Of a stretch of DNA of 64,000 nucleotides, positions 33,790-64,000 are shown piece by piece. The translations under genes were made by a program, and so were the position numbers. The first letter of the stretch is position 1, and the number at the start of each line of letters is the position of its first letter. The notes under the pieces were generated by a model. That model saw nothing but the letters and a program-made list of their open reading frames with translations, did no database searches and was not told the DNA's origin. Source of the stretch: Thermoplasmata archaeon (GTDB lineage: Archaea; Thermoplasmatota; Thermoplasmata; Lutacidiplasmatales; UBA184); contig JAKASQ010000001.1 in the NCBI GenBank assembly GCA_021828195.1, positions 357,202 through 421,201 on the forward strand. Reading direction: 5' to 3'.

Positions 33790-34652
33790 GGAGCCCCCAG
33801 CGCCCGGACGATTAGCTCGACCGCGAGCCCGCAGACCACGAAGAAGAACAGGAAGCGGAGCCAGAGCGTGCGGGCTCCGGGAAGGATGTGGCTGCCGAGG
33901 ATCGCACCGACCGTCGAACCGATGCCGATCGGGGCCGCGAGGACCGGGTTCACGTAGCCGGCCGCGAGGAGGATCCCCGCGCCCGCACATGCCGTCACCC
34001 CGATCATGAAATTGCTGGTCGCCGTGGCGACCTTGAACGGCATTCGGAGCGCGCCGTCGAGCGCAAAGACCTTCAGGACGCCGCTTCCGATGCCGAACAT
34101 TCCGGATACGATCCCCGCGCAGAACATGACGCCGAAGGCCCCGCTCGTGTTGGCGGCCTGATAGACGACCGTGGTGCCGGTCCGAGCGTCCCGGAACGCT
34201 CCGGTCAGTCCGAGCTTCTGGGAGGTCCGGTCGGGCACCACGCTCTCGGGCACCTCCTCGTGACGGCGCAAGAGGGCCGAGAGCGATCCGAGGATCAGAA
34301 CGATCGCGAGGGCGATCAACAGGGCCGCCGTGAGATTGTAGCGCGTCAGCAGGATGGTGAGGCTCGCTCCGAGGAGCGCTCCGGGGACCGTGGCGATCTC
34401 GAGCACCATCCCGATCCGGAGATCGGTGAGGCCCTCGTGGATGTACGCGGCTCCCGTGGTGACGGAGTTCGCGAGGATCGTGATGAGCCCGGCGCCGACG
34501 GCCTCGATGAACGGCACCTGGAAGAAGATCACGAGCACCGGGATCACGATGATCCCGCCCCCGATCCCGGTGAGCGAGCCGATGAACCCGGCGGCAATCG
34601 CGATCAGGAAGAGCAGCACGAGGAACAGAACAAGTTCCACGTGGATCGTCAC
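33786..34652 (-). CDS. TauE/SafE family permease
   Basis: A 288-residue polytopic protein with eight or so helices. The first half repeat has AGFIGSLTGIGGGIIVIPVL and the second half repeat has MFCAGIVSGMFGIGSGVLKV, the Gly-rich duplicated signature of TauE/SafE exporters. Proposed substrates are sulfite, sulfoacetate or other organosulfur anions. The GTG at 34652 begins just before the first helix. It is co-transcribed with the DUF1634 partner. Confidence 0.88.
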   Translation of the reverse strand: MTIHVELVLFLVLLFLIAIAAGFIGSLTGIGGGIIVIPVLVIFFQVPFIEAVGAGLITILANSVTTGAAYIHEGLTDLRIGMVLEIATVPGALLGASLTILLTRYNLTAALLIALAIVLILGSLSALLRRHEEVPESVVPDRTSQKLGLTGAFRDARTGTTVVYQAANTSGAFGVMFCAGIVSGMFGIGSGVLKVFALDGALRMPFKVATATSNFMIGVTACAGAGILLAAGYVNPVLAAPIGIGSTVGAILGSHILPGARTLWLRFLFFFVVCGLAVELIVRALGAP

Positions 34653-34743
34653 GAGCCGGACGGGAAAAAGACGTTGGACGGTCCGAAGCCGGCCGGACCC
34701 GGAACGAAACGGCCATGAAGGGCTCCCGGCTTCGGGGCTACCG

Positions 34744-37164
34744 ATGGAGCCACGCGGGGACCGACTCGCCTTCGGCCACCCAGGGACGGCCCTCTTCGGC
34801 GCTCCGAGCCGCAAGGATGGATTCGGGACGGCCTACTCGGCGGACTCCCAGCTCTGGTACACGATGTGGCGGGGCGTCGTCACCGAGGTGTACTACCCCA
34901 CGATCGACCGCCCGAAGCTCCGGGGCATCGAGTATGTGGTCACGGACGGGGAGACCTTCCTGCACGACGAGGCCGTGCACATGGAGAGCACCATCGAACG
35001 ACCCCACGAACATGCACTGGGCTACCGCGTCCAGTCCCGCGACCCGGAGGGCCGCTACACGATCGACAAGGAGGTGCTCTCGGCCCCGCACCTACCGTGC
35101 CTGCTCATGCGCACGCGCATGCAGACCCGGACCGCGACGCTCCGCGAGCGTCTGAAACTCTACGTGCTCATCGCCCCTCGACTCGATCCCAACGACGCCG
35201 GGGACGATGGGGACGTCTTCGATCTGGTCGGAATGCCGATCCTCGCGGCATCGCGTCCCGGAGTGGCGCTCGCGGTCGGCGGGACCGTGCCGTTCTCCCG
35301 CGCGTCCGTGGGCTACGTCGGCCGGAGCGATGCTCGGACCGATCTCATGGACCACTTCGGCATGTCCTGGGAGTTCGATCACGCTCCGGCCGGACACATC
35401 CTGCTCGCGGGTGAGATCCCCGTGCCCGACGACGGGGAGTTCACCCTCGCCTTCGCCTTCGGCGGCTCGCCGGAAGCGGCCTCGACCACCTTGCTCCAGG
35501 CGCTGGGCACCCCGTTCAGCTGGCAGCGGGACCGCTTCATCGAGCAATGGGACCGGACGGCCCGTCACGAGCGACCCCTCGGATCCCACTCCGGCGACGA
35601 CGGACGACTCTACCGGGCGAGCCACTCCGTCCTCCTCGCGCACGAGGATAAGGAATTCCCCGGCGCGTTCATCGCCTCGCCTTCAACGCCGTGGGGCATC
35701 GTCCATGGCGGCGAGCGCGGAGGCTATCATCTGGTCTGGACCCGCGATCTGGTTCACACCGCCACCGGGCTGCTCGCCGCCGGCAATCGCGAGGCGCCCT
35801 TGCGGGCGCTGATCTACCTCGCCTCCCGCCAGCAGGGCGATGGGGGATTTCCGCAGAACTTCTGGGTCGACGGGGGCGCCTACTGGAAGGGGGTCCAGCT
35901 CGACGAGGTCGCCCAACCGATCCTGCTCGCGGCACGGCTCGATCGCGCGCGCGCCCTCCAGCAGTTCGACCCGTATCCCCTCGTCCTGCGCGCGGCGAGA
36001 TACCTCATCGAGCGCGGTCCGGCGACCCCCGAGGACCGCTGGGAGGAGGTGAGCGGCTACTCTCCGTCCACCCTCGCGGCCCAGATCGCGGCGCTGACGT
36101 GCGCGGCCGGGTTCGCTCGCGCCCGGGGCCATGCGGGAACCTCGCGGTTCATCCAGGAGTATGCGGACTTCCTGGAATGCCACGTCGATCCGTGGACGAT
36201 CACCGAACATGGTACCCTCGACCCGGAGATCCCACGCCACTACGTTCGCATTCGGCCGATCGATCCGAACGATCCCGCTCCGAACGAGTCGGCGGACTTC
36301 GGTACGATCCGGCTGCCGAACCTGCCGCCCGGCACGACCTCAACGTTCCCGACCGTGGAGATCGTCTCCGGTGACTTCCTCGAACTCGTCCGAGAGGGGA
36401 TTCGGGCCGCGGACGATCCGGCGGTGGTCGACTCCCTCCGTCTCATCGATCGCGTGCTCCGGGTCGATACTCCGAGGGGCCCGGTCTGGAAACGGTACAC
36501 GCACGACGGGTACGGGGAAGGCGTGGACGGGTCGCCGTTCCTAGGTTCGGGGGTCGGCCGGGCGTGGCCGCTCCTCACGGGGGAGCGGGGCCTCTACGAG
36601 CTTGCCGCCGGCCACGACCCAGCCCCGTACCTGCGTGCCCTCGAGCATTTCGCCACGGGAACGGGTCTACTGCCGGAACAGGTCTGGGATGCGCCGGCGT
36701 TGCCCGACCGCGAGCTCGCACCCGGCCACCCCACCGGCTCTGCGACACCGCTGGCCTGGGCCCACGCCGAGTACGTGACGCTGCTGCGCTCGGTTGCGGA
36801 CGGGGCGATCTTCGATCGGATCCCGATGGTGGCCGACCGGTATCTCCATCGCCGACGGCCGACGAAGTCGGTCGAGATCTGGAAGTTCAATCGTCGGCCT
36901 CCGACGATCGGGTGCGGCCGGCTCTTCCGCATCCAGGTCTCGGCGCCGTTCCGGCTGCATTGGTCGGACGACGACTGGAGGACCGCACACGACACCGACT
37001 CGACCGAGACCTCGCTCGGAATCAGCTACGTCGACCTGCCTCCGCTCGAACGCCCGGGGAACTCCTACCGCTTCACATTCTACTGGCCGCAGGGCGATCG
37101 ATGGGAGGGTCGGGACTTCCGCATCGATTCGGCGCCGGCCTCGCCCGCGCCGACAACTCCGTAG
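34744..37164 (+). CDS. GH15 glucoamylase / glucodextranase-like enzyme
   Basis: An 806-residue glycoside hydrolase family 15 protein. An N-terminal super-sandwich domain (to ~residue 265) starts FGAPSRKDGFGTAYS, then LWYTMWRGVVTEVYYPTIDR. An (alpha/alpha)6 barrel follows: YHLVWTRDLVHTATGLLAAG, GGFPQNFWVDGGAYWKGVQL and WEEVSGYSPSTLA with the proposed general acid region. A second Glu lies in LLPEQVWDAPALPDRE. The C-terminal ~100 residues form a beta domain. The domain layout matches archaeal and bacterial prokaryotic glucoamylases. No signal peptide is seen, so it probably acts on internal alpha-glucans. It releases glucose, which the ROK kinase at 52127 could phosphorylate. Confidence 0.9.
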   Translation: MEPRGDRLAFGHPGTALFGAPSRKDGFGTAYSADSQLWYTMWRGVVTEVYYPTIDRPKLRGIEYVVTDGETFLHDEAVHMESTIERPHEHALGYRVQSRDPEGRYTIDKEVLSAPHLPCLLMRTRMQTRTATLRERLKLYVLIAPRLDPNDAGDDGDVFDLVGMPILAASRPGVALAVGGTVPFSRASVGYVGRSDARTDLMDHFGMSWEFDHAPAGHILLAGEIPVPDDGEFTLAFAFGGSPEAASTTLLQALGTPFSWQRDRFIEQWDRTARHERPLGSHSGDDGRLYRASHSVLLAHEDKEFPGAFIASPSTPWGIVHGGERGGYHLVWTRDLVHTATGLLAAGNREAPLRALIYLASRQQGDGGFPQNFWVDGGAYWKGVQLDEVAQPILLAARLDRARALQQFDPYPLVLRAARYLIERGPATPEDRWEEVSGYSPSTLAAQIAALTCAAGFARARGHAGTSRFIQEYADFLECHVDPWTITEHGTLDPEIPRHYVRIRPIDPNDPAPNESADFGTIRLPNLPPGTTSTFPTVEIVSGDFLELVREGIRAADDPAVVDSLRLIDRVLRVDTPRGPVWKRYTHDGYGEGVDGSPFLGSGVGRAWPLLTGERGLYELAAGHDPAPYLRALEHFATGTGLLPEQVWDAPALPDRELAPGHPTGSATPLAWAHAEYVTLLRSVADGAIFDRIPMVADRYLHRRRPTKSVEIWKFNRRPPTIGCGRLFRIQVSAPFRLHWSDDDWRTAHDTDSTETSLGISYVDLPPLERPGNSYRFTFYWPQGDRWEGRDFRIDSAPASPAPTTP

Positions 37165-50156: not shown

Positions 50157-50906
50157 ATGAACCCTCCTCGCTCCCGGTCCGCGCTGCGGCTCGCTTGGCC
50201 GGAGGTCGTGCTCTTCGACCTCGACGATACGCTATTCGATCACACTTGGTCTTGCCGTTCGGGCATCGCCTACCTCCGCCGAAAGGACCGGCGCCTCGCC
50301 CAGCACTCCCTGGACGAGCTCTTCCGAGAGTACTCGCGCCTGCTCGAAGCGATCCACCCGCAGGTCGTCGCGGGCGCGCTTACCCCCGACGCGGCTCGTC
50401 TCCACCGGTTCCGCCACCTCGCCACCTGGGGTGGGTTCGAGATCGATGGAAAGGAAGCCGCTCGATTCTCCGAGGAGTACCGGAGGCGCTACCTCCGCGC
50501 CCGTCGCCCCGTGCCCGGAGCCCGCGCCGTGCTCGATCGCCTGCGGGGGCGTACGACGATCGGGGTCGTGACGAACAATCGGGCAGCGGAGCAAGACGAC
50601 AAGATCCGGGCCATCGGCCTCGAGCGCCGACTGGACTTCCTCGTGATCTCGGAGGCCGAAGGTGTTTCCAAGCCCGATCCCCGCATCTTCCGGATCGCTC
50701 TGAGGAAGGCGAGGGCCCGCCCGGAGGAGGCCGTGATGATCGGGGACTCCTGGGGGAGCGACGTGCGCGGGGCCCTGGGCGCCGGCATCCGACCGATCTG
50801 GTTCAACCGGTTCCATCGGCCCATGCCGGAGCCCCTGGGGGTGCCCGAGATCGACTCGTACACGCCCGTGGGCGGTCTGACCCGCTTGCTGCCCCGATCG
50901 CCCTAG
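50157..50906 (+). CDS. HAD-superfamily hydrolase
   Basis: A 249-residue HAD phosphatase. The nucleophile motif is VVLFDLDDTLFDHTW (DxDxT), motif II is GVVTNNRAAEQDDKI, and the Lys region is SEAEGVSKPDPRIF. The acidic motif IV is VMIGDSWGSDVRGA. The cap domain is helical (residues ~30-120). It resembles pyrimidine-nucleotidase or phosphoglycolate phosphatase-like members. The substrate is unknown. It overlaps the Taw1 gene by 4 bases, tail-to-tail. Confidence 0.85.
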   Translation: MNPPRSRSALRLAWPEVVLFDLDDTLFDHTWSCRSGIAYLRRKDRRLAQHSLDELFREYSRLLEAIHPQVVAGALTPDAARLHRFRHLATWGGFEIDGKEAARFSEEYRRRYLRARRPVPGARAVLDRLRGRTTIGVVTNNRAAEQDDKIRAIGLERRLDFLVISEAEGVSKPDPRIFRIALRKARARPEEAVMIGDSWGSDVRGALGAGIRPIWFNRFHRPMPEPLGVPEIDSYTPVGGLTRLLPRSP

Positions 50907-51871
50907 GCGACCATGGGGAGCTCGCCGCTCGGGCCCAGCCCGGGCAGGTACCGCCCCTCGGCGCTCTCTCCGAGAAGATAGACCTTGGAGTCCGGAGATT
51001 CGTCGAGGAGCTGATAGCCGGTCCGGTGCGCGAGCTGACGGGCGAAGTGGCCGATCTCCTCGTGCGTCGGAACGTGGCTCTTGCCGAGCCGCTGACGGGA
51101 TTTTCCCATGTAGACATAGCCCTTCGGCTCGATGAAGTCCGGTCGCGCGGTGAGGTCCATCTCGGCGTAGGCGTCGACCCACCCGAGATTCCATCCCTTG
51201 ACCAGGGTGTGGCGGACGACCCGGCGCGTGTTGAGATCGCGAATGATCTCGAGCGACTCCTGCAGCCGTTCCCATGCGTCCTCCTGGGCGGGCAAGGTCA
51301 ATCGGCGGAACACTTCGGCGTTCGGCGCGGTGACCGAGACGTACAGCTGCGTCGGAAGCGGGTCGAGATGGCGCAAGGCGTCGGGGTTCGTGCCGTTCGT
51401 GACGAGGAAGGTGGTGATGCCTCGGGAGTGGCAAAGCTCGAGGAAGCGGTTCATCTTCGGGTAGAGCGTGGGCTCGCCGGTCAGCGAGATCGCGACGTGG
51501 CGGGGAGCCTGGGACTCCTTCCAGCGGTCGAGATCGATCGAGTCGTCCCCCTTGAACCCGGAGAGGATCCGCCGTTGGGCCTCGATCGACCGATCGATGA
51601 GGGTCTCAGGGTCATCGTACTCGGGCATCGTCTCGTCGTTCTCCCAGCCTTGGTTGCGCCAGCAGAAGCGGCAGTGCAGATTGCACGAGTCGATCGCCGG
51701 GGACATCTGCAGGCACCGGTGGCTCTGGATCCCATAAAATCGGCCCTTGTAGCAATCGCGCTTGTTCACGAGGGACTCGCGGGTCCAGTAGCAGAGCTTC
51801 ACCGCGCTGTGGCGGCCCACCAGCTGGTAGCCTTGACCCTGGAGCTCGCTCGAAAGGTCCTGGTCCCCCAT
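50903..51871 (-). CDS. taw1: tRNA 4-demethylwyosine synthase Taw1
   Basis: A 322-residue radical SAM enzyme. The SAM motif is DSCNLHCRFCWRNQG, preceded by GRFYGIQSHRCLQMSPA. Typical TYW1 segments follow: VAISLTGEPTLYPKMNRFLE, FLVTNGTNPDALRHL, LYVSVTAPNAEVFRRLTLPA and DFIEPKGYVYMGKSR. It condenses pyruvate with N1-methylguanosine 37 of tRNA-Phe to form the wyosine ring. The archaeal form lacks the flavodoxin domain, as here. The ATG at 51871 lies about 30 bases after a cttatgg box. Confidence 0.96.
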   Translation of the reverse strand: MGDQDLSSELQGQGYQLVGRHSAVKLCYWTRESLVNKRDCYKGRFYGIQSHRCLQMSPAIDSCNLHCRFCWRNQGWENDETMPEYDDPETLIDRSIEAQRRILSGFKGDDSIDLDRWKESQAPRHVAISLTGEPTLYPKMNRFLELCHSRGITTFLVTNGTNPDALRHLDPLPTQLYVSVTAPNAEVFRRLTLPAQEDAWERLQESLEIIRDLNTRRVVRHTLVKGWNLGWVDAYAEMDLTARPDFIEPKGYVYMGKSRQRLGKSHVPTHEEIGHFARQLAHRTGYQLLDESPDSKVYLLGESAEGRYLPGLGPSGELPMVA

Positions 51872-52126: not shown

Positions 52127-52894
52127 ATGTCGCCCCCTCCTCCACGCACGGGCCTGCAGATCCTCGTTCTCGACGTCGGTGGAAGCCATGTCCGGGCCGC
52201 GTTCTCCCATCGAGCTCTGCGGATTCGCATCGTCTCCGGCCCGAAGATGACACCCGGTCGGATGGTCCGTCAGCTCCGGGCGCGGCTGCGGGGGCACGAG
52301 TACGACGTCGTGGCGATCGGCTACCCGGGTGTCGTGACGAAGGGCCGGATCATGCAGGATCCCCACAATCTCGGGCCCGGCTGGATCGGCTTCGATTTCA
52401 CCCGGGCCTTCCGGCATCCGGTACACATCGTCAATGATGCGGCGATGCAGGCGCTCGGGAGCTACCGGAAAGGCCGGTTGCTCTTCCTCGGGCTCGGCAC
52501 CGGTCTCGGATCGGCCATGGTGATCGAGGGCAAGCTCCAACCCATGGAGCTCGCGCACCTCCCGTACAAGAAGGAGCGGACGTTCGAAGAGTACGTAGGA
52601 GAGGCCGCGCTCGAGCGGTACGGCCGGAAGAAGTGGTCCAAGGAGGTGCGCAAGGTGGTCGGCGTGCTCGCCGCCGCTCTCGAGCCGGACGAAGTCGTCC
52701 TCGGAGGGGGGAACGCGCGCCTCATCCGCAAGTTCCCTCCGCGCACCCGCGCCGGGAGCAACGAGCACGCCATCATCGGCGGATTCCGCCTATGGCAGGA
52801 CCCCACAGAGTGGGTCGACCTGACCGAACGCCGGACCGGTTCGAAGCGTGCGCGATCCCGGTCCGCAACGACCCGGCGCCGACCCCGACGCTAG
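52127..52894 (+). CDS. ROK-family sugar kinase (polyphosphate glucokinase-like)
   Basis: A 255-residue ASKHA kinase. The phosphate-1 motif is ILVLDVGGSHVRAAFSH, then VVAIGYPGVVTKG, HIVNDAAMQALGSY with the catalytic Asp (ND), and the phosphate-2 loop LFLGLGTGLGSAMVIEGK. LGGGNARLI is the adenosine motif. The length and the motif around HIVNDA resemble polyphosphate glucokinases. It lacks the ROK zinc-binding Cys motif. It should make glucose 6-phosphate, the substrate of Zwf encoded next door on the opposite strand. The last ~25 residues are a basic tail. A TATA-like cttaac lies 27-30 bases upstream. Confidence 0.83.
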   Translation: MSPPPPRTGLQILVLDVGGSHVRAAFSHRALRIRIVSGPKMTPGRMVRQLRARLRGHEYDVVAIGYPGVVTKGRIMQDPHNLGPGWIGFDFTRAFRHPVHIVNDAAMQALGSYRKGRLLFLGLGTGLGSAMVIEGKLQPMELAHLPYKKERTFEEYVGEAALERYGRKKWSKEVRKVVGVLAAALEPDEVVLGGGNARLIRKFPPRTRAGSNEHAIIGGFRLWQDPTEWVDLTERRTGSKRARSRSATTRRRPRR

Positions 52895-52904
52895 CCGGGC
52901 GGCA

Positions 52905-53690
52905 CTACTCCCTCGGCGGTGGGCGCATCCCACTCGACGTGCGCGGCACGCGCGCGGCCGCCGCGCGATCGAGAAACCAGCGGACCGGTCCCGCCGAGCG
53001 CACCATGCTGGCCGGCAGCTTCGAGTTGCCGCGGGGCCCGGCTCGAAGGACCCTCGCTACGGTAGCGGCCTTCTCCGAGCCTTCGACCAAGAACACGACT
53101 TCTCGGGAGGACGCGAGTGCCGGCAAGGTGAGGCTCAGCCGCGGGACCCAGGGAGGGTGGCCCGCGCGCGGTACGGAGACGACCATGCGCGTTCGCTCCC
53201 GGAGGGCCGGCGCTCCGGGAAAGAGCGAGGCGGTGTGACCGTCCGGCCCGAGCCCGAGGAGCACGGTATCGAAGCGCGGGGGCGCCCCCGTGGGCGGCGC
53301 GCGTCCGATGAGGCGCGCGTAGTCTTCGGCCGCCTTGGACGCGGGCCGAAGCTCTCCTCGAAGGCGATGGACCTGTCGACGGGGAATCGGTACATGAGCG
53401 AGCAACGCCTCCCGCGCCATGGCGTAATTGCTCTCGGGGTCCCGAGGGCCCACGCACCGCTCGTCCCCAAAGAGGATCTCCGTTTCTTCCCACGGGAAGC
53501 GCGAGCGCCACCGACGAGCGAGGAGCTGGTAGAGGGCCTCGGGCGTGCGGCCGCCCGCGAGCACCCAGGAGAACCGACCGCGCGCTCGCACGGCCGCTCG
53601 CGCCTGCGCGGCGAGGTGGCGTGCCGCCGCTTCGGCTTCGCGGGTCGGATCGGGAAAGACCCGGATCTCCCGCTCTAACCGGGGTCCCAC
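52905..53690 (-). CDS. pgl: 6-phosphogluconolactonase (DevB/Pgl type)
   Basis: A ~261-residue protein from GTG 53690. Motifs: FSWVLAGGRTPEALYQLLA, then ETEILFGDERCVGPRDPESN, DTVLLGLGPDGHTASLFPGA (active-site DGH) and VVFLVEGSEKAATVARVL. This is the bacterial Pgl family, hydrolysing 6-phosphogluconolactone to 6-phosphogluconate. The start overlaps the end of zwf by 16 bases; an upstream GTG at 53702 is possible. It is the last gene of the pentose phosphate operon. Confidence 0.93.
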   Translation of the reverse strand: MGPRLEREIRVFPDPTREAEAAARHLAAQARAAVRARGRFSWVLAGGRTPEALYQLLARRWRSRFPWEETEILFGDERCVGPRDPESNYAMAREALLAHVPIPRRQVHRLRGELRPASKAAEDYARLIGRAPPTGAPPRFDTVLLGLGPDGHTASLFPGAPALRERTRMVVSVPRAGHPPWVPRLSLTLPALASSREVVFLVEGSEKAATVARVLRAGPRGNSKLPASMVRSAGPVRWFLDRAAAARVPRTSSGMRPPPRE

Positions 53691-55132
53691 CGGTGCCCCC
53701 ACTCCTCGACGAGCCTCTGCGCCTCGACCGGGCCGTCGGAGCCCGCCGGATAGAACACGACCGCCGGAGGGTGCTCCAGGATCGGCGCGTAGAGACGCCA
53801 AGACTCCTCGATCTCGTCGTCCCGGACGAAGAGGCTCGCATCCCCGCCCATCACGTCCACGAGGAGGGTCTCGTAACCGTCGGGAAGCTCGCCGAAGACG
53901 TCGGCGTAGTGAAACTTCATTCGGTGCGTCTGCACCCGCATCTCGCGGCCGGGGATCTTGATCTCGAAGGCGAGCTCGAACCCTTCCTGAGGCTGCAAGA
54001 GGATGGTGATTCGATCCGGGTTGACCTCGTACTCCTGTTCCGTCTGAAAGAACGATACCGGCGGGGCCTTGAACGTTACCACGATCCGGCTCGATTTGGC
54101 CCGGAGGCGCTTTCCGGTGCGCAGGAAGAACGGCACGTTCTGCCAGCGCCAGTTGGCGACCTTCAGCCGAAGCGCGATGTACGTTTCCGTGTCCGAGTCC
54201 GGTGGAACGCCCGGCTCCTGCCGGTACCCGGGCCACGGTTGGCCGTTGAGGTTTCCCGGCCCGTACTGCCCGCGCACGACGTCGCCCGGCGCGATCCGTA
54301 CGGCGCTGTGCAGGACCTTGACCTTCTCGCTGCGGATCGCGTCCTCATCCTTCGTGGCGGGCGGCTCCATCGCGACGAGCGTGAGCAGCTGGGTGACGTG
54401 GTTCTGCACCATGTCCCGCAGCGCGCCGGAACTCTCGTAGTAGCCGGCTCGACCTTCCACGCCGAGGCTCTCGGCGACGGTGATCTCTACGTGGTCGATG
54501 CGGTCGCGGTTCCACAGCGATTCAAAGAACACGTTGGCGAAGCGGAAGACCAACAGGTTCTGGACGGTCTCCTTGCCGAGGTAGTGATCGATCCGATAGA
54601 GCTGCTTCTCCTCGAAGTAGCGGTGCGCGAGCGCGTTGAGTGTCACGGCCGATGCGAGGTCGCGGCCGAACGGCTTCTCGATGACGACCCGGGCCCATCC
54701 GGGGCCTTTGCTCAAGCCCGCCTCACCGAGTCCTTGAAGGGTCGGACCGAACGCTTCGAGGGGGAGTGCGAGATAGAAGATCCGGTTCCCCGGGAGCCCG
54801 TGCTCCTTCTCGACCTGTTCGATGCGACCCCGAAGTGTTTGGTATCCGGTACCCGATTGGTTGTCGAGGGGTTGGTAGTAGAGGGTGCGCTCGCAGAACG
54901 CCCGCACGTCTGCGTCGGCACCGGCCTTCTCCTCCAGCAGGGAGGCGGCGGCCTGCCGGCGGAACGCCGCGTCGTCCAGCGGATGGCGGGCGACCCCGAG
55001 GATGACGGTCTGTCCCGGGAGCTTGCCCTGGGCGGCGAGGTGGTACAGCACGGGGAGCATCTTGCGTTGCATGAGGTCGCCCGTGGCCCCGAAAACCACC
55101 AAGATGTGCGGCTCGCCGTCGGGGGGATCCAT
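53675..55132 (-). CDS. zwf: glucose-6-phosphate dehydrogenase
   Basis: A 485-residue bacterial-type G6PDH. The coenzyme loop is VVFGATGDLMQRKMLPVLY, VVIEKPFGRDLASA follows, and the catalytic signature is LYRIDHYLGKETVQNLLVFR with the active His. The C-terminal segments FFLRTGKRLRAKSSRIVV and FEIKIPGREMRVQTHRM are normal. It oxidises glucose 6-phosphate to the lactone, forming NADPH or NADH. Most archaea lack this family. The ATG at 55132 is two bases from the gnd stop. Confidence 0.96.
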   Translation of the reverse strand: MDPPDGEPHILVVFGATGDLMQRKMLPVLYHLAAQGKLPGQTVILGVARHPLDDAAFRRQAAASLLEEKAGADADVRAFCERTLYYQPLDNQSGTGYQTLRGRIEQVEKEHGLPGNRIFYLALPLEAFGPTLQGLGEAGLSKGPGWARVVIEKPFGRDLASAVTLNALAHRYFEEKQLYRIDHYLGKETVQNLLVFRFANVFFESLWNRDRIDHVEITVAESLGVEGRAGYYESSGALRDMVQNHVTQLLTLVAMEPPATKDEDAIRSEKVKVLHSAVRIAPGDVVRGQYGPGNLNGQPWPGYRQEPGVPPDSDTETYIALRLKVANWRWQNVPFFLRTGKRLRAKSSRIVVTFKAPPVSFFQTEQEYEVNPDRITILLQPQEGFELAFEIKIPGREMRVQTHRMKFHYADVFGELPDGYETLLVDVMGGDASLFVRDDEIEESWRLYAPILEHPPAVVFYPAGSDGPVEAQRLVEEWGHRWDPG

Positions 55133-55134
55133 GG

Positions 55135-56043
55135 TCAGGGGTCCTTCTTCACTTCGTGGCCGCCGAACTTGTTGCGCATCATCGCCAGGAGGCGTTCCGC
55201 GAACGGATCGGACTCGCGCGAGCGCAACCGCTGCTGGAGGGCGAGGGTGATGACCGGCGCGGGAATGTTGAGGTCCATCGCCTCGGTCACGGTCCAGCGG
55301 CCCTCGCCCGAATCGACGACCCAGGGCTGGATGCCCTGGAGCGTCGGGTTCTCCGCGAGCGCCGACTCGGTGAGTTCGAGCAGCCAGGAACGGATCACGC
55401 TCCCGTAGCGCCAGACCTCGGAGATCTGGTGCAGGTCGAGCGCGAAGTCCGCTTTCGCCTGGAGGACCGCGAATCCTTCCGCGTAGGCCTGCATCATGCC
55501 GTACTCGATCCCGTTGTGGACCATCTTCACGAAGTGCCCGGAGCCGATCTTTCCCATGCGACCCCATCCCTTCGTCGGGCCCGGGGCGAGCGTCTCGAGG
55601 ATCGGCCGTATCTGTTCGACATCGGTGGGGTCGCCGCCGACCATCATCGAGTAGCCTTCCGTGAGCCCCCAGATCCCGCCGCTCGTGCCGACGTCCACGA
55701 ATCGGAACCCCCAGCTCTTCACCAGCTCGGCGCGACGCAGCGTGTCCCGGTAGTACGAGTTCCCTCCATCGACGATGAGGTCGCCCGGCGCGAGCAGCGG
55801 ATGGAGCTGTTCCAACTCCTGATCGACGGGAGCTCCGGACGGGATCATCAGCCACACGATCCTCGGGGTGGGAAGCTGTCGGACGAGGTCGGCGAGCGAA
55901 CTCGACCCGGTCACCCCTTGCGCCACCGCGCCATCGACGACCGATTTCGTGCGGGCGTACCCGACCACGGTGTGGCCTCCGCGCACCAGTCGCACGGCCA
56001 TGTTGGCGCCCATCTTTCCGAGTCCGATCATTCCGAGCTTCAT
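55135..56043 (-). CDS. gnd: 6-phosphogluconate dehydrogenase (decarboxylating), short form
   Basis: A 302-residue enzyme: MKLGMIGLGKMGANMAVRLV (Rossmann loop), LIVDGGNSYYRDTLRRAEL, then VDVGTSGGIWGLTEGYSMMV and the catalytic HFVKMVHNGIEYGMMQAYAE. It lacks the long C-terminal extension of E. coli Gnd and belongs to the ~300-residue GndA-type subgroup, which often prefers NAD. It produces ribulose 5-phosphate and CO2. It lies between zwf and a HAD phosphatase gene on the same transcript. Confidence 0.95.
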   Translation of the reverse strand: MKLGMIGLGKMGANMAVRLVRGGHTVVGYARTKSVVDGAVAQGVTGSSSLADLVRQLPTPRIVWLMIPSGAPVDQELEQLHPLLAPGDLIVDGGNSYYRDTLRRAELVKSWGFRFVDVGTSGGIWGLTEGYSMMVGGDPTDVEQIRPILETLAPGPTKGWGRMGKIGSGHFVKMVHNGIEYGMMQAYAEGFAVLQAKADFALDLHQISEVWRYGSVIRSWLLELTESALAENPTLQGIQPWVVDSGEGRWTVTEAMDLNIPAPVITLALQQRLRSRESDPFAERLLAMMRNKFGGHEVKKDP

Positions 56044-56057
56044 CGATCTCTTCCTCC

Positions 56058-56672
56058 TCACCCCGCGACGATGCCGGCGGAGGCGAGCTCCTCACGGATC
56101 CGGTCGGGGTCTCGCACCCAGAGGGTGCGCAGGCCGAGCCGGGCGGCCGACTCGACGTTCTCACGTCGATCGTCCAGAAAGAGCGCCTCGTCGAGGTCGC
56201 GCTGAGTGATCTCCAGAGCATAGCGGTAGGCTTCGGGATCCGGCTTGCGCCGGCAGGTGTAGCACGAGCTGAGGAAGAGGTGGAAGATCTCGCGCAGGTG
56301 GAAGGTCCGAATGCGATATTCGTTCAGGTCCCGCGACTCGTTGTTCAGCGCCGCCATCACGAACCTTCCCGCGGTGCGGAGCTCGCGGGCAAAGGCGAGC
56401 GCCACCGGGTGCGGGGTCGATCGAGCGTGCATGAACCGACGGAACTCCTCGCGATCGAACGTCCGCGGTAGGTAGAACACGGTCGCCGAGAGATAGGCCT
56501 CGAGGTCCGTCCGGCCCGTCTCGAAGTCCGTCTCCACCTGGCCGTGCCGTCGTTCGAACTCGGCGGGGTCAAGACCGAACCTCTCCGCCGCCGCTTGGCG
56601 CGCCGCCTGGTCCCAGCCGTTCGAGAGCAGCACGCCCCCGATGTCCCACAGGAGGAGGGAGACCTCAGCCAT
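56058..56672 (-). CDS. HAD-superfamily phosphatase within the pentose phosphate operon
   Basis: A 204-residue HAD-IA protein with the variant nucleophile motif LLLWDIGGVLLSNGWD (DxGGV, second Asp absent as in many FDxGGVL-type members). Motif II is MAALNNESRDLNEY, the Lys is in CYTCRRKPDPEAYRYA, and motif IV is ALFLDDRRENVESA. A helical cap lies in between. Four-base-scale overlap with tal-pgi upstream and a 14-base gap to gnd show that it belongs to the operon. It may dephosphorylate a sugar phosphate or repair side products such as 4-phosphoerythronate. The substrate is unknown. Confidence 0.83.
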   Translation of the reverse strand: MAEVSLLLWDIGGVLLSNGWDQAARQAAAERFGLDPAEFERRHGQVETDFETGRTDLEAYLSATVFYLPRTFDREEFRRFMHARSTPHPVALAFARELRTAGRFVMAALNNESRDLNEYRIRTFHLREIFHLFLSSCYTCRRKPDPEAYRYALEITQRDLDEALFLDDRRENVESAARLGLRTLWVRDPDRIREELASAGIVAG

Positions 56673-59421
56673 CGAGCGCCTCTCGCATGCGCCCGAGGCC
56701 CCTCGCCACGTCGGTTCCGAGATCGACGCGCAGGACCCGGCGTCCCTTGGCGCGCAGCGCCTGATAGTCTCCCAGCGACTGCGCACGGATCAGTTGCCCG
56801 AACGTGTAGCCCGCTCCGGGAACCTCGAGATCCTGGCGCGGAGTATCGACCAGCTGGAGGAAGAGACCGGTATTCGGACCTCCCTTGTGCAGCTGGCCGG
56901 TGGAATGCAGGAAGCGCGGCCCGTACCCGAGCGTGGTCGCGACGTGCATCCGTTCGAGCGTTCGCCGGCGGATCGCCCCGAGCGCGTTCCAGGTCTCCGC
57001 GCTCGGAGCCAGGTACGCCTGGATGCTCGCGTAGTCTCCCGGCCGGCAGGTGGCGAGCCAGGCCCTCACGGCGTTCGAGAGGGCGGTGGGGTCGCCTCCC
57101 GCCACCGTCTCCACCTCCGGTGTCGGCGCCCCGGGCGTGGCGGGAGCCATCGCGCGTCGCGCGAGATCCTTCGCGAGCTCCACATCCGGTTGATCGAACG
57201 GGTCGATCCCGAGGATCATTCCCGAGCTCGCCACCGCGAGCTCCCACCGGAAGAACTCCTGCCCCAGGTCGATGAGTTCGCGAACGCGCACCCGTACGAC
57301 CGGGTGCCCGGCGACCTCCAATCGGGCGGTGTGCGATGCGAGCGCGGCGTCCACTCCATCTCCTTCTTCGATCTCAACGATCACGCGATCGGACCCGTAC
57401 GCCTCGGGCGCGATCATCGGTTCATCTACGATCGGAACGATCCCCTTGCCGGTCTTTCCCGTGCTCTCGGCGACGAGCTGTTCGATCCAGTCCGGAAGCG
57501 GGGCGAAGCTCGGCGAAGCATAGAAGGTGAGCTTGTCGCGGCCGTGCGTCGCGAGCTCTCCGAGCATCGCCCCCAATCTCAGAGCGGGATTCTCGGGAAC
57601 GTGGACGGAGGGAGCACACGCCGCGCCCATCGTCCCGGCGCGATCGAGAAGCGTCGGGACGTCCACGCCGCAGAGCGCGGCGGGTACGAGACCGAACATC
57701 GTGAGCGCGGAGTACCTTCCGCCCACGGTGGGGAGCGCGCGGAACGTAGCCCGGAACCTCAGATCCTGCGCGAGTTTCTCGAGCGGAGTGCCGGGATCGG
57801 TGACCGCGATGAATCGCCGCTCGGGCGCCTCGCCGGCCGCCCGCAGCACTTCCCAGAAGTACCGATAGAAGGAGAGCGGCTCGATCGTCGTCCCCGACTT
57901 GCTCGAGACGACGAACAGGGTGTGTCGGGGATCAATGCCGCTCTGCACCGCGCGGATCGCGTCGGGATGCGTGCTGTCCAGCACGAGAAGCTCCGGATAG
58001 CCCTCGCGGGGCCCGAAGATCCTTCGGAGCACACTCGGCGCGAGGGAAGAGCCGCCCATCCCGAGGACGACGACGTGGCGAGTTCCGTCCGCTCGGACCT
58101 CCTCCGCGAACTTGAGGAGCGCGGGCAGCGCGTCCCGCATCGTCTCGGGCAGTCGAAGCCAGCCGAGTCGGTCGGCCACATCCGGAAGGGGGGCGGCCGG
58201 CCAGAGCGTGGGATCGCCTCGCCACAGTCGATCGCCGACGTGCGCGTCCTGCCAGGACTGGATCCGAAGCTCCACGCTCTTCGCCGCGGTCCCGAGGTTC
58301 CACGCCTGCGGATCGACCGCGCCGGCGAGGACCGCTCTCTTGCGGGTGTCGAGAGAGGCGAGGAGCTGCGCATACGAAGCCGCGAACGCCGCGACGCCCT
58401 CGACCTGAAGGGCTTCGGTGATCCGAACGAGGTCGATCCCGACCTCCTTCGCCCGCTTCAACAGGTCTCGGGCCTCGGGCACTCCCTCGGTGACCGTGTT
58501 GCCCCGCACGACCCCGTGGTCCTCGAACGCGGCCAGCGTGGCCGGCGGGATCGTGTCCACCGTCTCGGGCCCGATGAGCTCCTCGACGTACAGCGTATCG
58601 CGCAGGCTCCGGTCCTTCGTGCTGGTGCTGGCCCACAGGAGTCGTTGAGGTCGGGCGCCCTGCTTCGCCCGCGCGGAGAACGCCGCGCCTTCGAACAGTT
58701 CTTGGAACCGGGCGTAGATCACGCGGCTGTTGGCGATCGCGATCTTCCCTTTGAGGGCGTTCGCCCGCGGGTCCGTCGACGCGTCGAGGACCTTGTCCAC
58801 GGCCGTGTCGATGCGGCTGACGAAGATCGACGCGACCGATGCGAGCCGGGACGGCGCCGAGGAGCGGGCGAGCGCCGCGAGGTACGCCTGGGCGACCGCC
58901 TCGTAGTGCGAGAGGGAGAACATCAGCGTGATGTTGACGTTGATGTTCTCGGAGAGCAACTGCTGGATCGCCGGGATCCCCTCGGGCGTCGCGGGGACCT
59001 TGATGAGGAGATTCGGCCGGTGGACCGACGCCCAGAGGCGGCGCGCTTCCGCGATCGTACCCGAGGTGTTGTGCGCCAGTCCGGGCGCGACCTCGAGGCT
59101 GACGAACCCATCGGCTCCCTTCGTCCGATCGTAGACCGGGCGCAGGATGTCGGCCGCCAGGGTGACGTCCTCGATCGCGAGGCGCTCGTACAGCTCGGCG
59201 GCGGAGAGGTGCGGTTCGCGGGCCAGGAGCTCCCTCAGCGCGGCGTCGTAGTCGGTACTGCCGGCGATCGCCTTTTCGAAGATCGTCGGATTGATCGTGA
59301 CGCCCGTGATGCCGTCCGTGTTCACCATCCGCGCGAGGTCGCCCTGGGTGAGCAGACTCCGTCGGATGTAGTCCAGCCAGGGCGACTGGCCCTGGGCGAG
59401 CAGGGCGGCCAGGGGCTTCAC
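56665..59421 (-). CDS. tal-pgi: bifunctional transaldolase / glucose-6-phosphate isomerase
   Basis: A 918-residue fusion. Residues 1-~370 are transaldolase: [40 protein letters not shown] with the Schiff-base Lys, and [20 protein letters not shown]. Residues ~385-918 are a phosphoglucose isomerase: [40 protein letters not shown] and [15 protein letters not shown]. The fusion occurs in several bacterial phyla. It rearranges C3-C7 sugar phosphates and returns fructose 6-phosphate to glucose 6-phosphate for recycling. GTG start overlapping the tkt stop (GTGA). Confidence 0.95.
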
Positions 59422-61433
59422 GGTCGAGCTCCCTTCGAGGACGCGGCGAGCAGGCCCCTGGCGACCTCGACCACATGCTCGACCGTGAGGCCCAGCTCCT
59501 TCTGCACGATGGCGCCGGGCGCGGACGCGCCGAACCGATCCACCCCGATCGACGCTCCCCGCTCCCCGACGTACCGCGTCCAGCCGAGGGTCACTGCGGC
59601 TTCGATCGAGATCTTGGGAACTCCGGGAGGCAAGACCGACTCGCGGTACGAGCGGGGCTGTTCGTCGTAGAGGCGCCACGAAGGCAGGGAGACCACGCGA
59701 ACCGGCACCCCGGTGCCGGCGATCCGCTGTTGAGCGGCCAGCGCGAGTGAAACCTCCGACCCGGTCGCGATGAGCACCAGCCTCGGAGGAGCGGCCCCTG
59801 CCTCCGAGAGAACGTACCCGCCGCGGGGCACGCCCTCCGCGATGGGATACTTACCGGCATCGAGGATCGGGAGTTTCTGGCGGCTGAACACGAGGGCCGT
59901 AGGACCTGGCCGCTCGATGGCCACCCGCCACGCAGCGATCGTCTCGTTGGCATCGGCGGGGCGAATGACGTTGAGGCCGGGGATCGCACGCAGGCTCAGC
60001 AGCTGCTCGACCGGCTGGTGAGTGGGGCCATCCTCCCCCATTCCAATGCTGTCGTGGGTGAACACGAGGATCACGTGGGTCTGTTGGAGCGCCGCGAGCC
60101 GGATGGCGCCCCGCGCGTAGTCGGAGAAGATGAGGAACGTCCCGCCGTAGGGTAGGAGCCCTCCGTGGAGCGCCATGCCGTTGAGCGCCCCGACCATCGC
60201 GTGCTCTCGAACCCCGAAGTGGAAGTTGCGTCCCTTCGCCTCAACGGAGGAGTAGTCCGGAGCTCCCGGCAGGAGCGTCTTCGTCGAGGGGGAAAGATCA
60301 GCCGCTCCGCCGACGAGCGCCGGGAAGGTCGCTGCGAGGGCGTCCAGCGCGCTCTGGGAGGCGTCCCGCGTCGCCATGGGTCCGTCGGCGGGAGCGAAGG
60401 TCGGGAGGGTCGAGCTCCATCGGGGAGGAAGCGTTCCGGCGATCTGCCCATCGAACGCGGCGGCCTTCGCGGGATACGCGATCCGAAACCTCTCCCGGAG
60501 GGTCTCCCACTCCTTCTGCCACGTCGCTCCGCGGGCGACGGCCTCGCCGAAGTGAGTGCGGGCCACGTCCGGAACTAGGAAGGTGGGGTCGAGCGGCCAG
60601 TCCAGCTTCTCCTTCGTTGCCCGGAGGTTGACCGGCCCCAGGGCCTCACCGTGCGCCTCACGTGTGTCCTGAACCGGGCTGCCGTAGCCGATGTGGGTGC
60701 GCACGCAGATGAGGGAGGGGTGCGCCGTTTCCGCCTGCGCGGCGCGGATCGCGGCCTCGATCGCGGGGAGATCGTTCCCGTTGGGGATCCTCTGGACGTG
60801 CCAGCCGTACGCGACGAACCGTGCGGCGACGTCCTCCGTGAACGCCCACTCCGTCGGCCCCTCGAGCGAGATGTGATTGTCGTCGTAGAGATAGATCAGC
60901 TTGCCGAGACCGAGCGTTCCGGCCAGCGAAGCGGCCTCGGAGGCGATTCCCTCCATCAGGTCTCCATCGGAGACGATCGCGTAGGTGTAGTGGTCCACGA
61001 GCGGGAAGCCTTCCTCGTTGAAGGTCGCGGAGAGATGCCGCTCCGCGATCGCCATCCCCACGCCCATCGCGAATCCCTGCCCCAAGGGGCCGGTCGTGGC
61101 CTCTACGCCCGGAGTGAGCCCGTACTCGGGGTGCCCGGGGGTTCGGCTGCCCCACTGCCGGAACCGCTGGAGCTCCTCGATGGGCAGATCGTACCCCGTC
61201 ACGTGGAGGAGCGAGTACAGCAGGGCGGAACCGTGTCCGGCCGATAGCACGAAGCGATCCCGGTTGAACCAGTGCGGGTCTCGAGGGTTGTGACGGAGAA
61301 ACCGATCCCAGAGCACGTAGGCCATCGGCGCCGCCCCGAGCGGCAGGCCGGGATGGCCGGATTTCGCCTTCTCGATCGAGTCGACGGAGAGGAACCGGAG
61401 GGTGTTGATGCACGTCGAATCCATATCGGCCAT
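59418..61433 (-). CDS. tkt: transketolase, full-length
   Basis: A 671-residue single-chain transketolase. The N-terminal half has [20 protein letters not shown], then [20 protein letters not shown] and the thiamine diphosphate motif [20 protein letters not shown]. The pyrimidine half has [20 protein letters not shown] with the catalytic Glu, [20 protein letters not shown] and the C-terminal domain [13 protein letters not shown]. Most archaea encode two half-length subunits, so a fused bacterial-type chain suggests transfer. It is the first gene of the operon. The TATA-like box and palindrome ~110-140 bases upstream predict a leader RNA. Confidence 0.96.
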
Positions 61434-61736
61434 GTGGTTCGCCTCGGATCGACGGGAGCGCGGGGGAGTCGTCTCGATGGGATCGGGGAGCGTGCGCCCC
61501 CGCTCCTCGGTCGATCGACGACTCGCCCTCGCAACCGTGTCCAGCGGGCCGCAAAGCTTGCGGGTCTAAAAGCGAACGGTGCGTCGGGACGCTCCAGCCG
61601 CCGGGTTCCGTCCCCGGAGGGATCGCGGAATCGATCGAAACGGGCGGCGGCGCTACCGTGTCGGTCCCTTCGCTCTCCGTATCGCCCCGGGACCTTCTAG
61701 GCAACTGTCATGAGCCCTCCCGGTATTCTCTGAAGG
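61434..61736. other. 303-base gap between tkt and the Cys-rich peptide gene
   Basis: This gap holds the putative tkt promoter and palindrome (61549-61572) and, near its right side, the start region of the plus-strand Cys-rich peptide. An AT-poor G/C-rich stretch occupies most of it. I see no tRNA, no further convincing coding frame and no repeat. Confidence 0.5.
61549..61572 (-). promoter_or_regulatory. TATA-like box with adjacent inverted repeat at the pentose phosphate operon promoter
   Basis: On the minus strand cttttaga (61572-61565) is the only TATA-like box upstream of tkt. It is followed at once by the inverted repeat ccgcaa-agc-ttgcgg (61549-61563, 6-bp arms). A repressor bound there would sit between the TATA box and the predicted transcription start near 61542, a typical archaeal operator position. 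The cognate regulator is not evident in the window. Confidence 0.45.
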
Positions 61737-61838
61737 ATGTCCGCCGAGATTGCTTGTGCGTGCTGCTCGTGCTCGGATTGCTGCCGGTGCTGTGCCTGTT
61801 GCTCCGTGGGGCAGGCCTGCTGTCCAACCTGCCCTTGA
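61737..61838 (+). CDS. 33-residue peptide with 13 cysteines (metallothionein-like)
   Basis: ATG at 61737 opens a 33-codon frame ending in TGA at 61836-61838. The product has 13 Cys: residues 7, 9, 10, 12, 15, 16, 18, 19, 21, 22, 28, 29 and 32, in the pattern CxCCxCxxCCxCCxCC...CCxxC. Such density of CC and CxC pairs is what metallothioneins use to bind Cu(I) or Zn in thiolate clusters. It ends 22 bases before a methyltransferase start and lies ~1.2 kb from a Cu(I) ATPase gene. Caution: another frame over the same DNA encodes a Leu-rich hydrophobic stretch with higher third-position GC, so translation is unproven. Confidence 0.45.
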   Translation: MSAEIACACCSCSDCCRCCACCSVGQACCPTCP

Positions 61839-61860
61839 AGGTCGGGGTGCGACCGGCCCG

Positions 61861-62514
61861 ATGGTTGCCCGACGCCGGCATTGGGACTCCATCTACCGGA
61901 CCAAACGCGAGGACGAGTTCAGCTGGCATCAGGATGAACCGGTCGAGTCCGTTCGTCTGCTACGAGGGGTAACGAACCGCCGCAATCGAATCGTCGATAT
62001 CGGAGGCGGGACCTCGCCCTTGGCGGGCCGGCTGTCGGAGCATGGTTTCCACCAGATCACGGTCGTCGACATCGCCGACGCGGCGGTCCAACTGGGTCCC
62101 AAGCGGTTGGGGACCGGCCAACTGAACGTGCGTTGGATCCGCGCCGACGTCACGCGGGTGGACCGGCTGGCTCGGTTTGACGTCTGGCACGACCGGGAGT
62201 TCTTCCACTTCCTCACCAACGCCACGGGTCGAAGCGCCTACGTGCGGCCGGCCCGCCGGAGCGTGCCCGTGGGGGGGGCACGTCATCCTCGCCACCTTTG
62301 CTCTGGATGGGCCGGAGACCTGCAGCGGCCTCGACGTCGTTCGGTACGATGGGAGGAAGCTCGAGTCGGAGTTCGCGAGAGGCTTCCGCCTCCTTCGCGA
62401 GCGTCGGGAGATCCATCGGACCCCGTGGGGGGCCCGCCAGCCGTTCACGTACGTCGTGTTCCGACGGATTCGAACGGCCGAAGCCGGCGCCCGGGCCCGG
62501 AGTCGATCGCCTAG
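61861..62514 (+). pseudogene. class I SAM-dependent methyltransferase, frameshifted at a G8 run
   Basis: From ATG 61861 the frame encodes HWDSIYRTKREDEFSWHQDE, then RIVDIGGGTSPLAGRLSEHG (SAM loop), ITVVDIADAAVQLGPKR and FDVWHDREFFHFLTN. At the run of eight G (62271-62278) this frame turns into nonsense. The expected continuation HVILATFALDGPETCSGLDV and RTPWGARQPFTYVVFRRI is in the next frame. Deleting one G joins them. With that correction the frame runs on to 62746, antisense to the next gene, while the uncorrected frame stops at 62514. It is either a sequencing error or a real mutation. The substrate is unknown; this family often accompanies metal or toxic-compound resistance. Confidence 0.7.
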
Positions 62515-63008: not shown

Positions 63009-64000
63009 TCAATGGGCCAAAGAGACGAATCGAAGGGAAAGTGAGTTCAGTACGACCGAGGTGGACGAGAGACCCATGGCGAGAGCCCCCGTGATGGGCA
63101 GTATGTTGTAGATGCCGAGTCCGAAGACGGGGACCAGGGCACCGGCGGCGACCGGGAGCAGGACGGCGTTGTACCCAAGCGCCCACGTCAGGTTGCCCTT
63201 GACCTTCCCCACGGTCCGGCGTCCGGTGCGTAGCGCGAGGGCCACTCCTCGGAAGTCCGAGCGCACGAGGATCACCCCACCGGCTTCCTTTGCGACGTCG
63301 GTGCCGGCGCCGATCGCGATGCCGAGGTCCGCGGCAGCGAGCGCCGGTGCGTCATTGATGCCGTCGCCGACGTACGCGACGTGCTTCCCCTGGGCTTGGT
63401 AGTCCTTGATGATCGCCAACTTCTCCTGGGGACTCACGTTGGCGTGCACCTCGGCGATCCCCACCTGCTCCGCCACGCGACGCGCGGCGGCCTCGTGATC
63501 GCCCGTCACCATGATCGCGGCGATACCGTCCTGAGAGAGGGCCGCGATCGCCTCTCGGACGCCGGGAGCGACCTCGTCGGAGAAGCCGAGGATTCCCAGG
63601 GGGCGTCCCTCTTCGAGGACGACGGACCACGTCTTCCCTTCCGACTCGAGTCTGCGGGATTCCGCGACCAACGGGCCGAGTTCCAAGCGATCCGTCCGGG
63701 CAGCGGCTCCCCGAAGGATCGACACCGTCCTTCCGTCTGTTTCGCCGCGGATCCCTCGTCCGGGTTCGGCGGTGAGCGAGCGAACCGCGGAGATGGTCGA
63801 GCCGCGCCGAGCCGCGGCGTCGCGGACCGCCTTGGCCAGCGGGTGCTCGGAGCCCTGCTCCAGGCCCGCCGCGACGCTGAGGAGGTGGGTCGGATCGACT
63901 CCCGGCATGGCCAGGACGTCGGTCATGGACGGTTCGCCGCGGGTCAGGGTCCCCGTCTTGTCCGTAAGGACTACGTCCGCTTGGCTCGCGCGCTCCAGGG
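63009..64000 (-). CDS. copA: copper-exporting P1B-1 ATPase, C-terminal part (cut by window end)
   Basis: About 330 C-terminal residues. The phosphorylation motif DKTGTLTRGEP is at the window edge (~63945). The nucleotide domain has EQGSEHPLAKAV (HP motif) and GRGIRGE. The hinge is MVTGDHEAAARRVAEQ and VAYVGDGINDAPALAAADLG. The last two helices carry GYNAVLLP (YN of TM7) and LAMGLSSTSVVLNSLSLR (MxxSS of TM8), the Cu(I) site signatures of CopA. It exports Cu(I) with ATP. The N-terminal metal-binding domains and CPC motif lie outside the window. Confidence 0.93.
   Translation of the reverse strand, partial: LERASQADVVLTDKTGTLTRGEPSMTDVLAMPGVDPTHLLSVAAGLEQGSEHPLAKAVRDAAARRGSTISAVRSLTAEPGRGIRGETDGRTVSILRGAAARTDRLELGPLVAESRRLESEGKTWSVVLEEGRPLGILGFSDEVAPGVREAIAALSQDGIAAIMVTGDHEAAARRVAEQVGIAEVHANVSPQEKLAIIKDYQAQGKHVAYVGDGINDAPALAAADLGIAIGAGTDVAKEAGGVILVRSDFRGVALALRTGRRTVGKVKGNLTWALGYNAVLLPVAAGALVPVFGLGIYNILPITGALAMGLSSTSVVLNSLSLRFVSLAH

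Follow-up and report, generated by a model that had tools for sequence, protein, structure and literature searches.

A pentose phosphate operon of probable bacterial descent in Lutacidiplasmatales and its likely displacement of a native split transketolase

Genes and features of the locus

The window analysed here is a stretch of 64,000 nucleotides that corresponds to positions 357202-421201 of contig C6 (799,357 bases) in genome G000 (G-numbers stand for genomes and L-numbers for loci), an assembly with 93.63% completeness and 0.03% contamination. The host is a Thermoplasmata lineage member of the Lutacidiplasmatales within the Thermoplasmatota, and the original prediction was correct in calling it an archaeon. 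Between 61433 and 52905 the minus strand carries six co-directional genes (tkt, tal-pgi, a HAD hydrolase gene, gnd, zwf and pgl), separated in this order by junctions of -4, -8, +14, +2 and -16 bases. The one-directional run from tkt to pgl that had been predicted was therefore found, with all junctions between -16 and +14 bases. The features are as follows.

50903..51871, minus strand: taw1, archaeal wyosine radical SAM enzyme (PF08608), left archaeal flank of the probable insertion
52127..52894, plus strand: ROK-family putative sugar kinase, convergent (tail to tail) with pgl; best match NF045942 (polyphosphate glucokinase), 74.5 bits against a cut-off of 250; PDB 3lm2, E 4e-73
52905..53690, minus strand: pgl, DevB-type 6-phosphogluconolactonase, start at GTG 53690 or 53702; TIGR01198, 218 bits (cut-off 124)
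53675..55132, minus strand: zwf, classical glucose-6-phosphate dehydrogenase, 485 aa; TIGR00871, 567 bits (cut-off 401); PDB 9emm, E 2e-138
55135..56043, minus strand: gnd, short 302-aa 6-phosphogluconate dehydrogenase of the GndA type; TIGR00872, 371 bits (cut-off 297); NF007161, 445 bits (cut-off 271); PDB 6vpb and 4e21
56058..56672, minus strand: HAD-family hydrolase, 204 aa; PF00702 on the longer open reading frame; TIGR01509; bacterial synteny
56665..59421, minus strand: tal-pgi, fused transaldolase/glucose-6-phosphate isomerase, 918 aa, GTG start, 4-base overlap with tkt; NF007080, 1171 bits (cut-off 712)
59418..61433, minus strand: tkt, first gene of the operon, full-length bacterial-type transketolase, 671 aa; TIGR00232, 848 bits (cut-off 682); Pfam N, pyr and C domains
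61434..61600, minus strand: leader and candidate promoter region with a weak TATA-like element, CTTTTAGA, about 139 bases before tkt
61750..62514, plus strand: methyltransferase-like gene (PF13649) between the operon and had3, divergent from tkt
63009..63926, minus strand: HAD hydrolase gene had3, right flank; near taw1 in 7 relatives without an insertion there

Based on the curated NCBIfam models, five of the six operon proteins (Tkt, Tal-Pgi, Gnd, Zwf and Pgl) scored above the equivalog or equivalog-domain cut-offs, and the HAD protein matched the general subfamily model TIGR01509 only. The tkt, the DevB-type pgl and the tal-pgi fusion had been described as bacterial forms, and this description is supported. 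The glucose-6-phosphate dehydrogenase (G6PDH) is composed of the classical G6PD_N and G6PD_C domains and does not belong to the Azf type (archaeal Zwischenferment). For Gnd the two NCBIfam names are opposite as to the cofactor, NAD+ in TIGR00872 and NADP in NF007161. Putative active-site motifs, compared by eye with PDB alignments, are kept in zwf (YRIDHYLGKE), gnd (GHFVKMVHNGIEYG) and tal (IKVPAT), and we presume that the residues concerned are catalytic; the putative active-site residues of tkt and pgi also appear to be kept, as judged by eye on the translation alone. The zwf, pgl and gnd genes are thus assigned to classical families in an operon-like arrangement, and are predicted to be co-transcribed.

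The ROK gene ends ten bases from the end of pgl. It had been presented as a glucokinase gene adjoining pgl, and its position is as described, but it lies on the opposite strand, and in the window it was excluded as a member of the operon. The assignment as a glucokinase is unproven, as all NCBIfam matches fall below their cut-offs and the nearest PDB entry, 3lm2, is named 'putative kinase'. According to synteny, the ROK gene is found on the operon strand in some relatives. The archaeal promoter that had been proposed fared less well: the leader holds only a weak CTTTTA element, common to a few close relatives, with a similar element at a like distance in L001, L018 and L019 among 12 relatives inspected.

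The order in the window is taw1, then the ROK gene, the operon and the methyltransferase-like gene, and then had3. A taw1 match was obtained in all 28 genomes searched (partial in G360). In 7 of the 19 other taw1 regions fetched (G001 apart) had3 was located near taw1, at a distance of about 84 and 116 bases in G256 and G325 and of 1.4-3.4 kb in G366, G310, G358, G387 and G128; it was not seen in the remaining regions, some of which are incomplete. As had3 lies near taw1 in these seven relatives, the block was probably inserted between the two genes in the G000/G001 lineage.

Distribution and bacterial relatives of the operon

A scan of genome contigs for Zwf gave 27 loci, namely 24 from Thermoplasmata/Lutacidiplasma (22 isolates, among them Candidatus Lutacidiplasma silvani AcS3-62, L010) and three from bacteria. 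All seven domains occur in the same order in 13 of the 24 archaeal loci, counting L001, in which pgl is cut by the contig end, and L005, in which pgi lies in two frames. Three loci (L013, L014 and L015) have neither Tal nor HAD, L015 also being without Pgi, and eight are cut by contig ends. Given this recurrent order among the archaeal loci, the arrangement of the operon genes is not due to chance. The matches to pgi in L005 and to tal in L016 come in two pieces in different frames, which indicates a frameshift or a sequencing error in those assemblies.

A survey of related Thermoplasmatota had been suggested together with the original prediction, and it showed that the operon recurs in the family of the window: Zwf (PF00479) was present in 15 of 389 genomes, 13 of them in this family (f1) and two in a remote family (f38). 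Within a set of 36 genomes, gnd accompanied zwf in all 14 zwf-bearing f1 genomes (E 1e-117 or better). Among the 11 f1 genomes without zwf, seven gave no gnd match, and in the other four the matches were weak (E 4e-5 to 1e-12, 29-41% identity) and resemble paralogues. The operon occupies different genomic places in different carriers, one of which, G387, belongs to the genus of the window. In early-branching carriers Pgi is present but Tal and HAD are not, and at L226, L227, L229, L231 and L237 a fusion-type Pgi has no Tal domain, Tal having been either lost or later gained. Additionally, tkt and pgi of G024 lie about 7 kb apart, with other DNA between them (L229, 10006-17220), and G325 has a second full-length tkt (L267, 59% identical to that of the window) on another contig. 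The view that most archaea have no zwf agrees with Table 1 of a 2015 survey, which lists G6PDH in 0% and 6-phosphogluconate dehydrogenase in 27% of 83 archaeal genera (PMC4518329). For another soil Thermoplasmata, the Angelarchaeales-1 genome, the oxidative enzymes of the pentose phosphate pathway are given as absent in the relevant passage of PMC9038741.

The descent of the operon was studied with a quick-method Gnd tree of 116 rows, from which matches with less than 80% coverage or less than 33% identity and near-duplicates within a group were left out. The 29 Lutacidiplasmatales rows formed one group (SH-aLRT 94, below the star), nested in a starred (98) set of 43 rows together with 14 bacterial rows: six of the Acidobacteriota phylum, four of the Gemmatimonadota phylum, two of the Desulfobacterota phylum, Paracoccus and Variovorax, with phylum labels anchored on L017, L021 and L023. 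The f38 Gnd was located far from the Lutacidiplasmatales group. In a concatenation of Tkt, Pgi, Gnd, Zwf and Pgl (14 archaeal and 12 bacterial rows), from which tal was left out because half of the carriers are without it, archaea and bacteria were split at 100/99. The archaeal clade had a support of 95/92 for Zwf, 100/99 for Tal and 88/68 for Tkt; in the Zwf, Tal and concatenation trees, which have no outer root, one archaeal group is set off from the bacteria. The Pgi tree did not resolve the archaeal clade and placed G024 apart. In view of the 88/68 support for Tkt and of the Pgi tree, some genes of the block may have arrived separately. The position of the Gnd group inside a bacterial set points to descent of the operon genes from bacterial genes.

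Several bacterial operons of the Gemmatimonadota and Acidobacteriota phyla consist of the same enzyme families as the operon of the window, including the tal-pgi fusion. L246 and L250 have the same building blocks in the order tal-pgi-gnd-zwf-pgl; L259 has tkt and pgl followed by tal-pgi-HAD-gnd-zwf, with HAD between pgi and gnd as in the window; and L262 has tkt-tal-pgi-gnd-zwf with a ROK gene (53% identity) beside pgl. HAD also adjoins gnd in 8 of 29 further loci of the Gemmatimonadota phylum. However, identities amount to 40-64% per protein, tkt lies elsewhere (G551) or the order is changed, and the host of the window is archaeal. It had been predicted that the block was acquired as a whole from bacteria. 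The bacterial descent and the matching bacterial operons agree with this, but the acquisition was not one simple event, because the trees of the operon and of native genes conflict and the native split transketolase was lost in carriers (see below). Neither can a single donor phylum be named from these trees, as the Acidobacteriota and Gemmatimonadota rows are intermixed in the Gnd tree.

Enzymes of a bacterial kind, in named genomes that are metagenome assemblies, could also result from contamination of the assembly or the bin by a bacterial contig. A break in composition between 49 and 64 kb had been proposed as the sign of this, and none was found: GC is 0.66-0.70 in the operon windows and 0.65-0.72 across the window, and GC3 is 0.81-0.87 in the operon as compared to 0.85-0.91 in four genes of the window outside it. 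The operon is located on a 799-kb contig, collinearity between G001 and the window extends over about 41-62 kb, which spans the taw1 side of the operon, and the block recurs, whole or in part, in the 24 archaeal loci from separately assembled genomes. Moreover, the native tktN described below is missing in operon carriers only. Contamination is thus so improbable that we reject it for practical purposes. Another explanation would be several independent transfers from different bacteria to different Lutacidiplasmatales. The Gnd of some carriers of the same genus is 62-66% identical to that of the window, and the best bacterial copies are equally close with 63%; the Pgi tree leaves room for such transfers, and the remote family f38 has a clearly independent, differently ordered cluster. 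This is nevertheless a very improbable account of the family itself, as all its 29 Gnd rows fall in one group and the concatenation separates its members from bacteria with near-maximal support.

The f38 cluster just mentioned (L238, 716-11945, and L239; genomes G248 and G294) resembles the operon of the window in that zwf, pgl, gnd, pgi, rpe and tkt are clustered. It differs in its order (pgi, gnd, pgl, zwf, one gene without a name, rpe, tkt), in a 591-aa tkt of another subfamily and in a Gnd that is 44% identical and falls outside the clade.

Movement between archaeal lineages and the native transketolase locus

In a tree of nine native genes from 28 genomes, carriers and non-carriers of the operon interleave, with 6 changes, at least 4 of which are forced by starred branches. 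Columns filled in less than 40% of the rows were dropped from this alignment; one gene, present in 11 of the 28 genomes, counts little, and G360 is without Taw1. The operon tree joined G000, G001, G325 and G387 with G290 and G382 at 100/100, whereas the native genes place G290 and G382 with G401, G078, G139, G320 and the non-carrier G223. In AU tests the operon data rejected the g17/g20/g21 species clade (p 4e-6), the pair G017 and G387 (p 3e-65) and the pair G128 and G325 (p 2e-4; support for that species branch is only 93/95), and the native data rejected the operon clade (p 3e-78). These groups were chosen with the trees already known, so the p-values are optimistic. In view of the conflict between the operon and species trees, transfer of the operon between Lutacidiplasmatales lineages is also probable.

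The native locus of the operon-free G366 holds tktN-tktC-talC, as confirmed with Pfam. With TktN of G366 as the query, matches of 65-100% were obtained in each of the 11 f1 genomes that have no operon, G366 itself among them, and of 51-54% in all three genomes of the sister family. The split tktN was found in none of the 14 operon carriers, the sole matches being to the full-length bacterial Tkt (33-39%), and the operon and the split transketolase did not occur together in any of the 25 family genomes searched. The native locus is collinear across the family, and a remnant or a clean deletion was present there in each of the 14 carriers inspected. At this locus no tktN was found in 13 carriers, and a 75-residue remnant at 35% is left in G253. 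The tktC gene is nearly full length in G017, G253 and G387 (51-55%) and partial in G325, G024 and G128 (43-49%). In the other eight carriers tktC was not found with tblastn, and searching the gap of each of them with a profile gave nothing either (best E 0.08); in five of them an unrelated open frame occupies the gap, which is about 1 kb long. Twelve of the 14 carriers have an intact archaeal TalC. That of G000, the window genome, has 63 residues missing, including KVPMT, presumably the active-site lysine motif, and that of G001 is reduced to about 60 C-terminal residues. Among the 11 non-carriers TalC is whole in ten and cut by the contig end in G358. An apparent stop in tktN of the non-carrier G256 was dismissed as a defect, as it is the natural end of the gene.

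Phylogenetically independent pairs of a carrier and a non-carrier number four on starred branches, all of them opposite in state (sign test p 0.125), and six on the best tree. We read these data as a probable displacement of the native split transketolase by the operon in the family, the few independent pairs limiting its generality. The displacement is the more interesting finding than the operon itself. Bacterial genes entering archaea are well known, and an imported pathway is rarely caught while taking over a core function. Here each of 25 related genomes has one of two systems, the bacterial cassette or the split transketolase native to the family, and partly destroyed intermediates are present at a single collinear locus, by which displacement in central metabolism becomes testable with regard to the order of losses and the coexistence of both systems.

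Six carriers keep an orphan TktC without its TktN partner, in nearly full frames at L273, L274 and L330 and in partial ones at L275, L277 and L284. The motif with the presumed catalytic glutamate is lost in five of the six; in G128 a glutamate aligns at that column, its N-domain being otherwise hardly alignable. The mean identity of the TktC N-domain is 28% between carriers (15 pairs) and 79% between non-carriers (10 pairs from five genomes), as compared to 51% and 75%, respectively, for the C-domain. When TktC of G017 and G387 are compared, codon positions 1, 2 and 3 differ by 0.50, 0.42 and 0.63 in the N-domain, as against 0.27, 0.26 and 0.49 in the C-domain, which hints at a remaining constraint on the C-domain of the orphan TktC. 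Frames can stay open by chance in G+C-rich DNA, and the orphan genes may also simply be decaying. It is a tentative and rather doubtful extension of these data that a horizontally exchanged bacterial cassette would decide between two mutually exclusive kinds of pentose metabolism, each arrival being followed by destruction of the native split transketolase in place, and that the six orphan TktC, five without the catalytic glutamate but with a partly conserved C-terminal domain, would be kept for a new, non-catalytic job.

Predicted pathway and relation to known systems

Rpe was detected in all 30 genomes searched (E 4e-67 in G000) and RpiA in 28 of the 30 (E 1e-51 in G000), being missing in G358 and G401 and fragmentary in G078 and G223. 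The pathway had been called complete, which applies to the genome, as rpe and rpiA are present elsewhere in it, and not to the operon, which includes neither. Together the genes amount to a complete predicted set for the oxidative and non-oxidative pathway. If the operon is expressed and its enzymes are active, glucose-6-phosphate from the ROK kinase or Pgi would be oxidised by Zwf, Pgl and Gnd to ribulose-5-phosphate with two reduced nicotinamide cofactors per glucose-6-phosphate, the chromosomal Rpe and RpiA would give xylulose-5-phosphate and ribose-5-phosphate, and Tkt and Tal-Pgi would return carbon to fructose-6-phosphate and glucose-6-phosphate. The family lineage may have taken the block from a bacterium of the Acidobacteriota or Gemmatimonadota kind, and the block may later have passed between Lutacidiplasmatales lineages. 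In carriers the native TktN and TktC would have become redundant and been lost in place, the native transaldolase of the window genome being broken too. We consider it highly likely that this is a pentose phosphate operon of bacterial descent, complete in the above sense, that was later exchanged among Lutacidiplasmatales and displaced the native split transketolase.

The single origin in the trees would also fit an operon that is ancestral to the family and purely vertical in its inheritance, the operon and the split transketolase being lost reciprocally by lineage; the interleaving of carriers and non-carriers needs losses only if the ancestor had both systems. No family genome of the 25 searched combines the two, the operon lies at different genomic places and its tree conflicts strongly with that of the species, which makes this explanation unlikely as a whole. 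It may be part of the truth, as vertical inheritance of the operon is likely inside the g17/g20/g21 clade. With regard to function, zwf and pgl also serve the Entner-Doudoroff route, and the operon could mainly be a feeder of that route or a source of NADPH and not a pentose cycle. Against this, gnd, tkt and tal-pgi are part of the same operon and the native tktN was not found in carriers, so that transketolase reactions should use the Tkt of the operon. We therefore regard a mainly Entner-Doudoroff or NADPH-directed role as quite improbable, and prefer the pentose phosphate pathway with an exchanged operon.

The same net route is known in an archaeon from the oxidative pentose phosphate pathway of haloarchaea. 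Their G6PDH, the archaeal Zwischenferment or Azf, is of a novel type according to the title of a 2015 paper by Pickl and Schonheit, in contrast to the classical Zwf (TIGR00871) of the window. The tktN-tktC-talC pathway of the operon-free relatives is predicted to perform the same reactions as Tkt and Tal, with Rpe and RpiA common to both systems; it differs in its two-subunit transketolase and short FSA-like transaldolase, and zwf and gnd were not found in these relatives. The gain of pfk from bacteria in Lutacidiplasmatales, which is reported in the passages on glycolysis and pfk by Sheridan 2022 (PMC9287336), is likewise a bacterial acquisition in the central carbon metabolism of this group, but of another gene. 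The terms 'pentose', 'transketolase' and 'glucose-6-phosphate' do not occur in the main text of that paper, the Supplementary Data 8 of which may list the genes. Within the text available from the literature searched (including PMC9287336, PMC10354927, PMC12220078, PMC9700705, PMC9038741 and PMC4518329) the operon is not described in Lutacidiplasmatales. With the operon, a soil archaeal family would gain a predicted sugar pathway yielding NAD(P)H, which goes unmentioned in these main-text passages on the group.

In addition, a GH15 glucodextranase-type gene is located at 34354-37164 of the window. Homologues of it lie beside the operon in G024, G290 and G382, which suggests that glucose release may feed the pathway, and a GH15 gene also adjoins gnd-zwf on a Variovorax plasmid.
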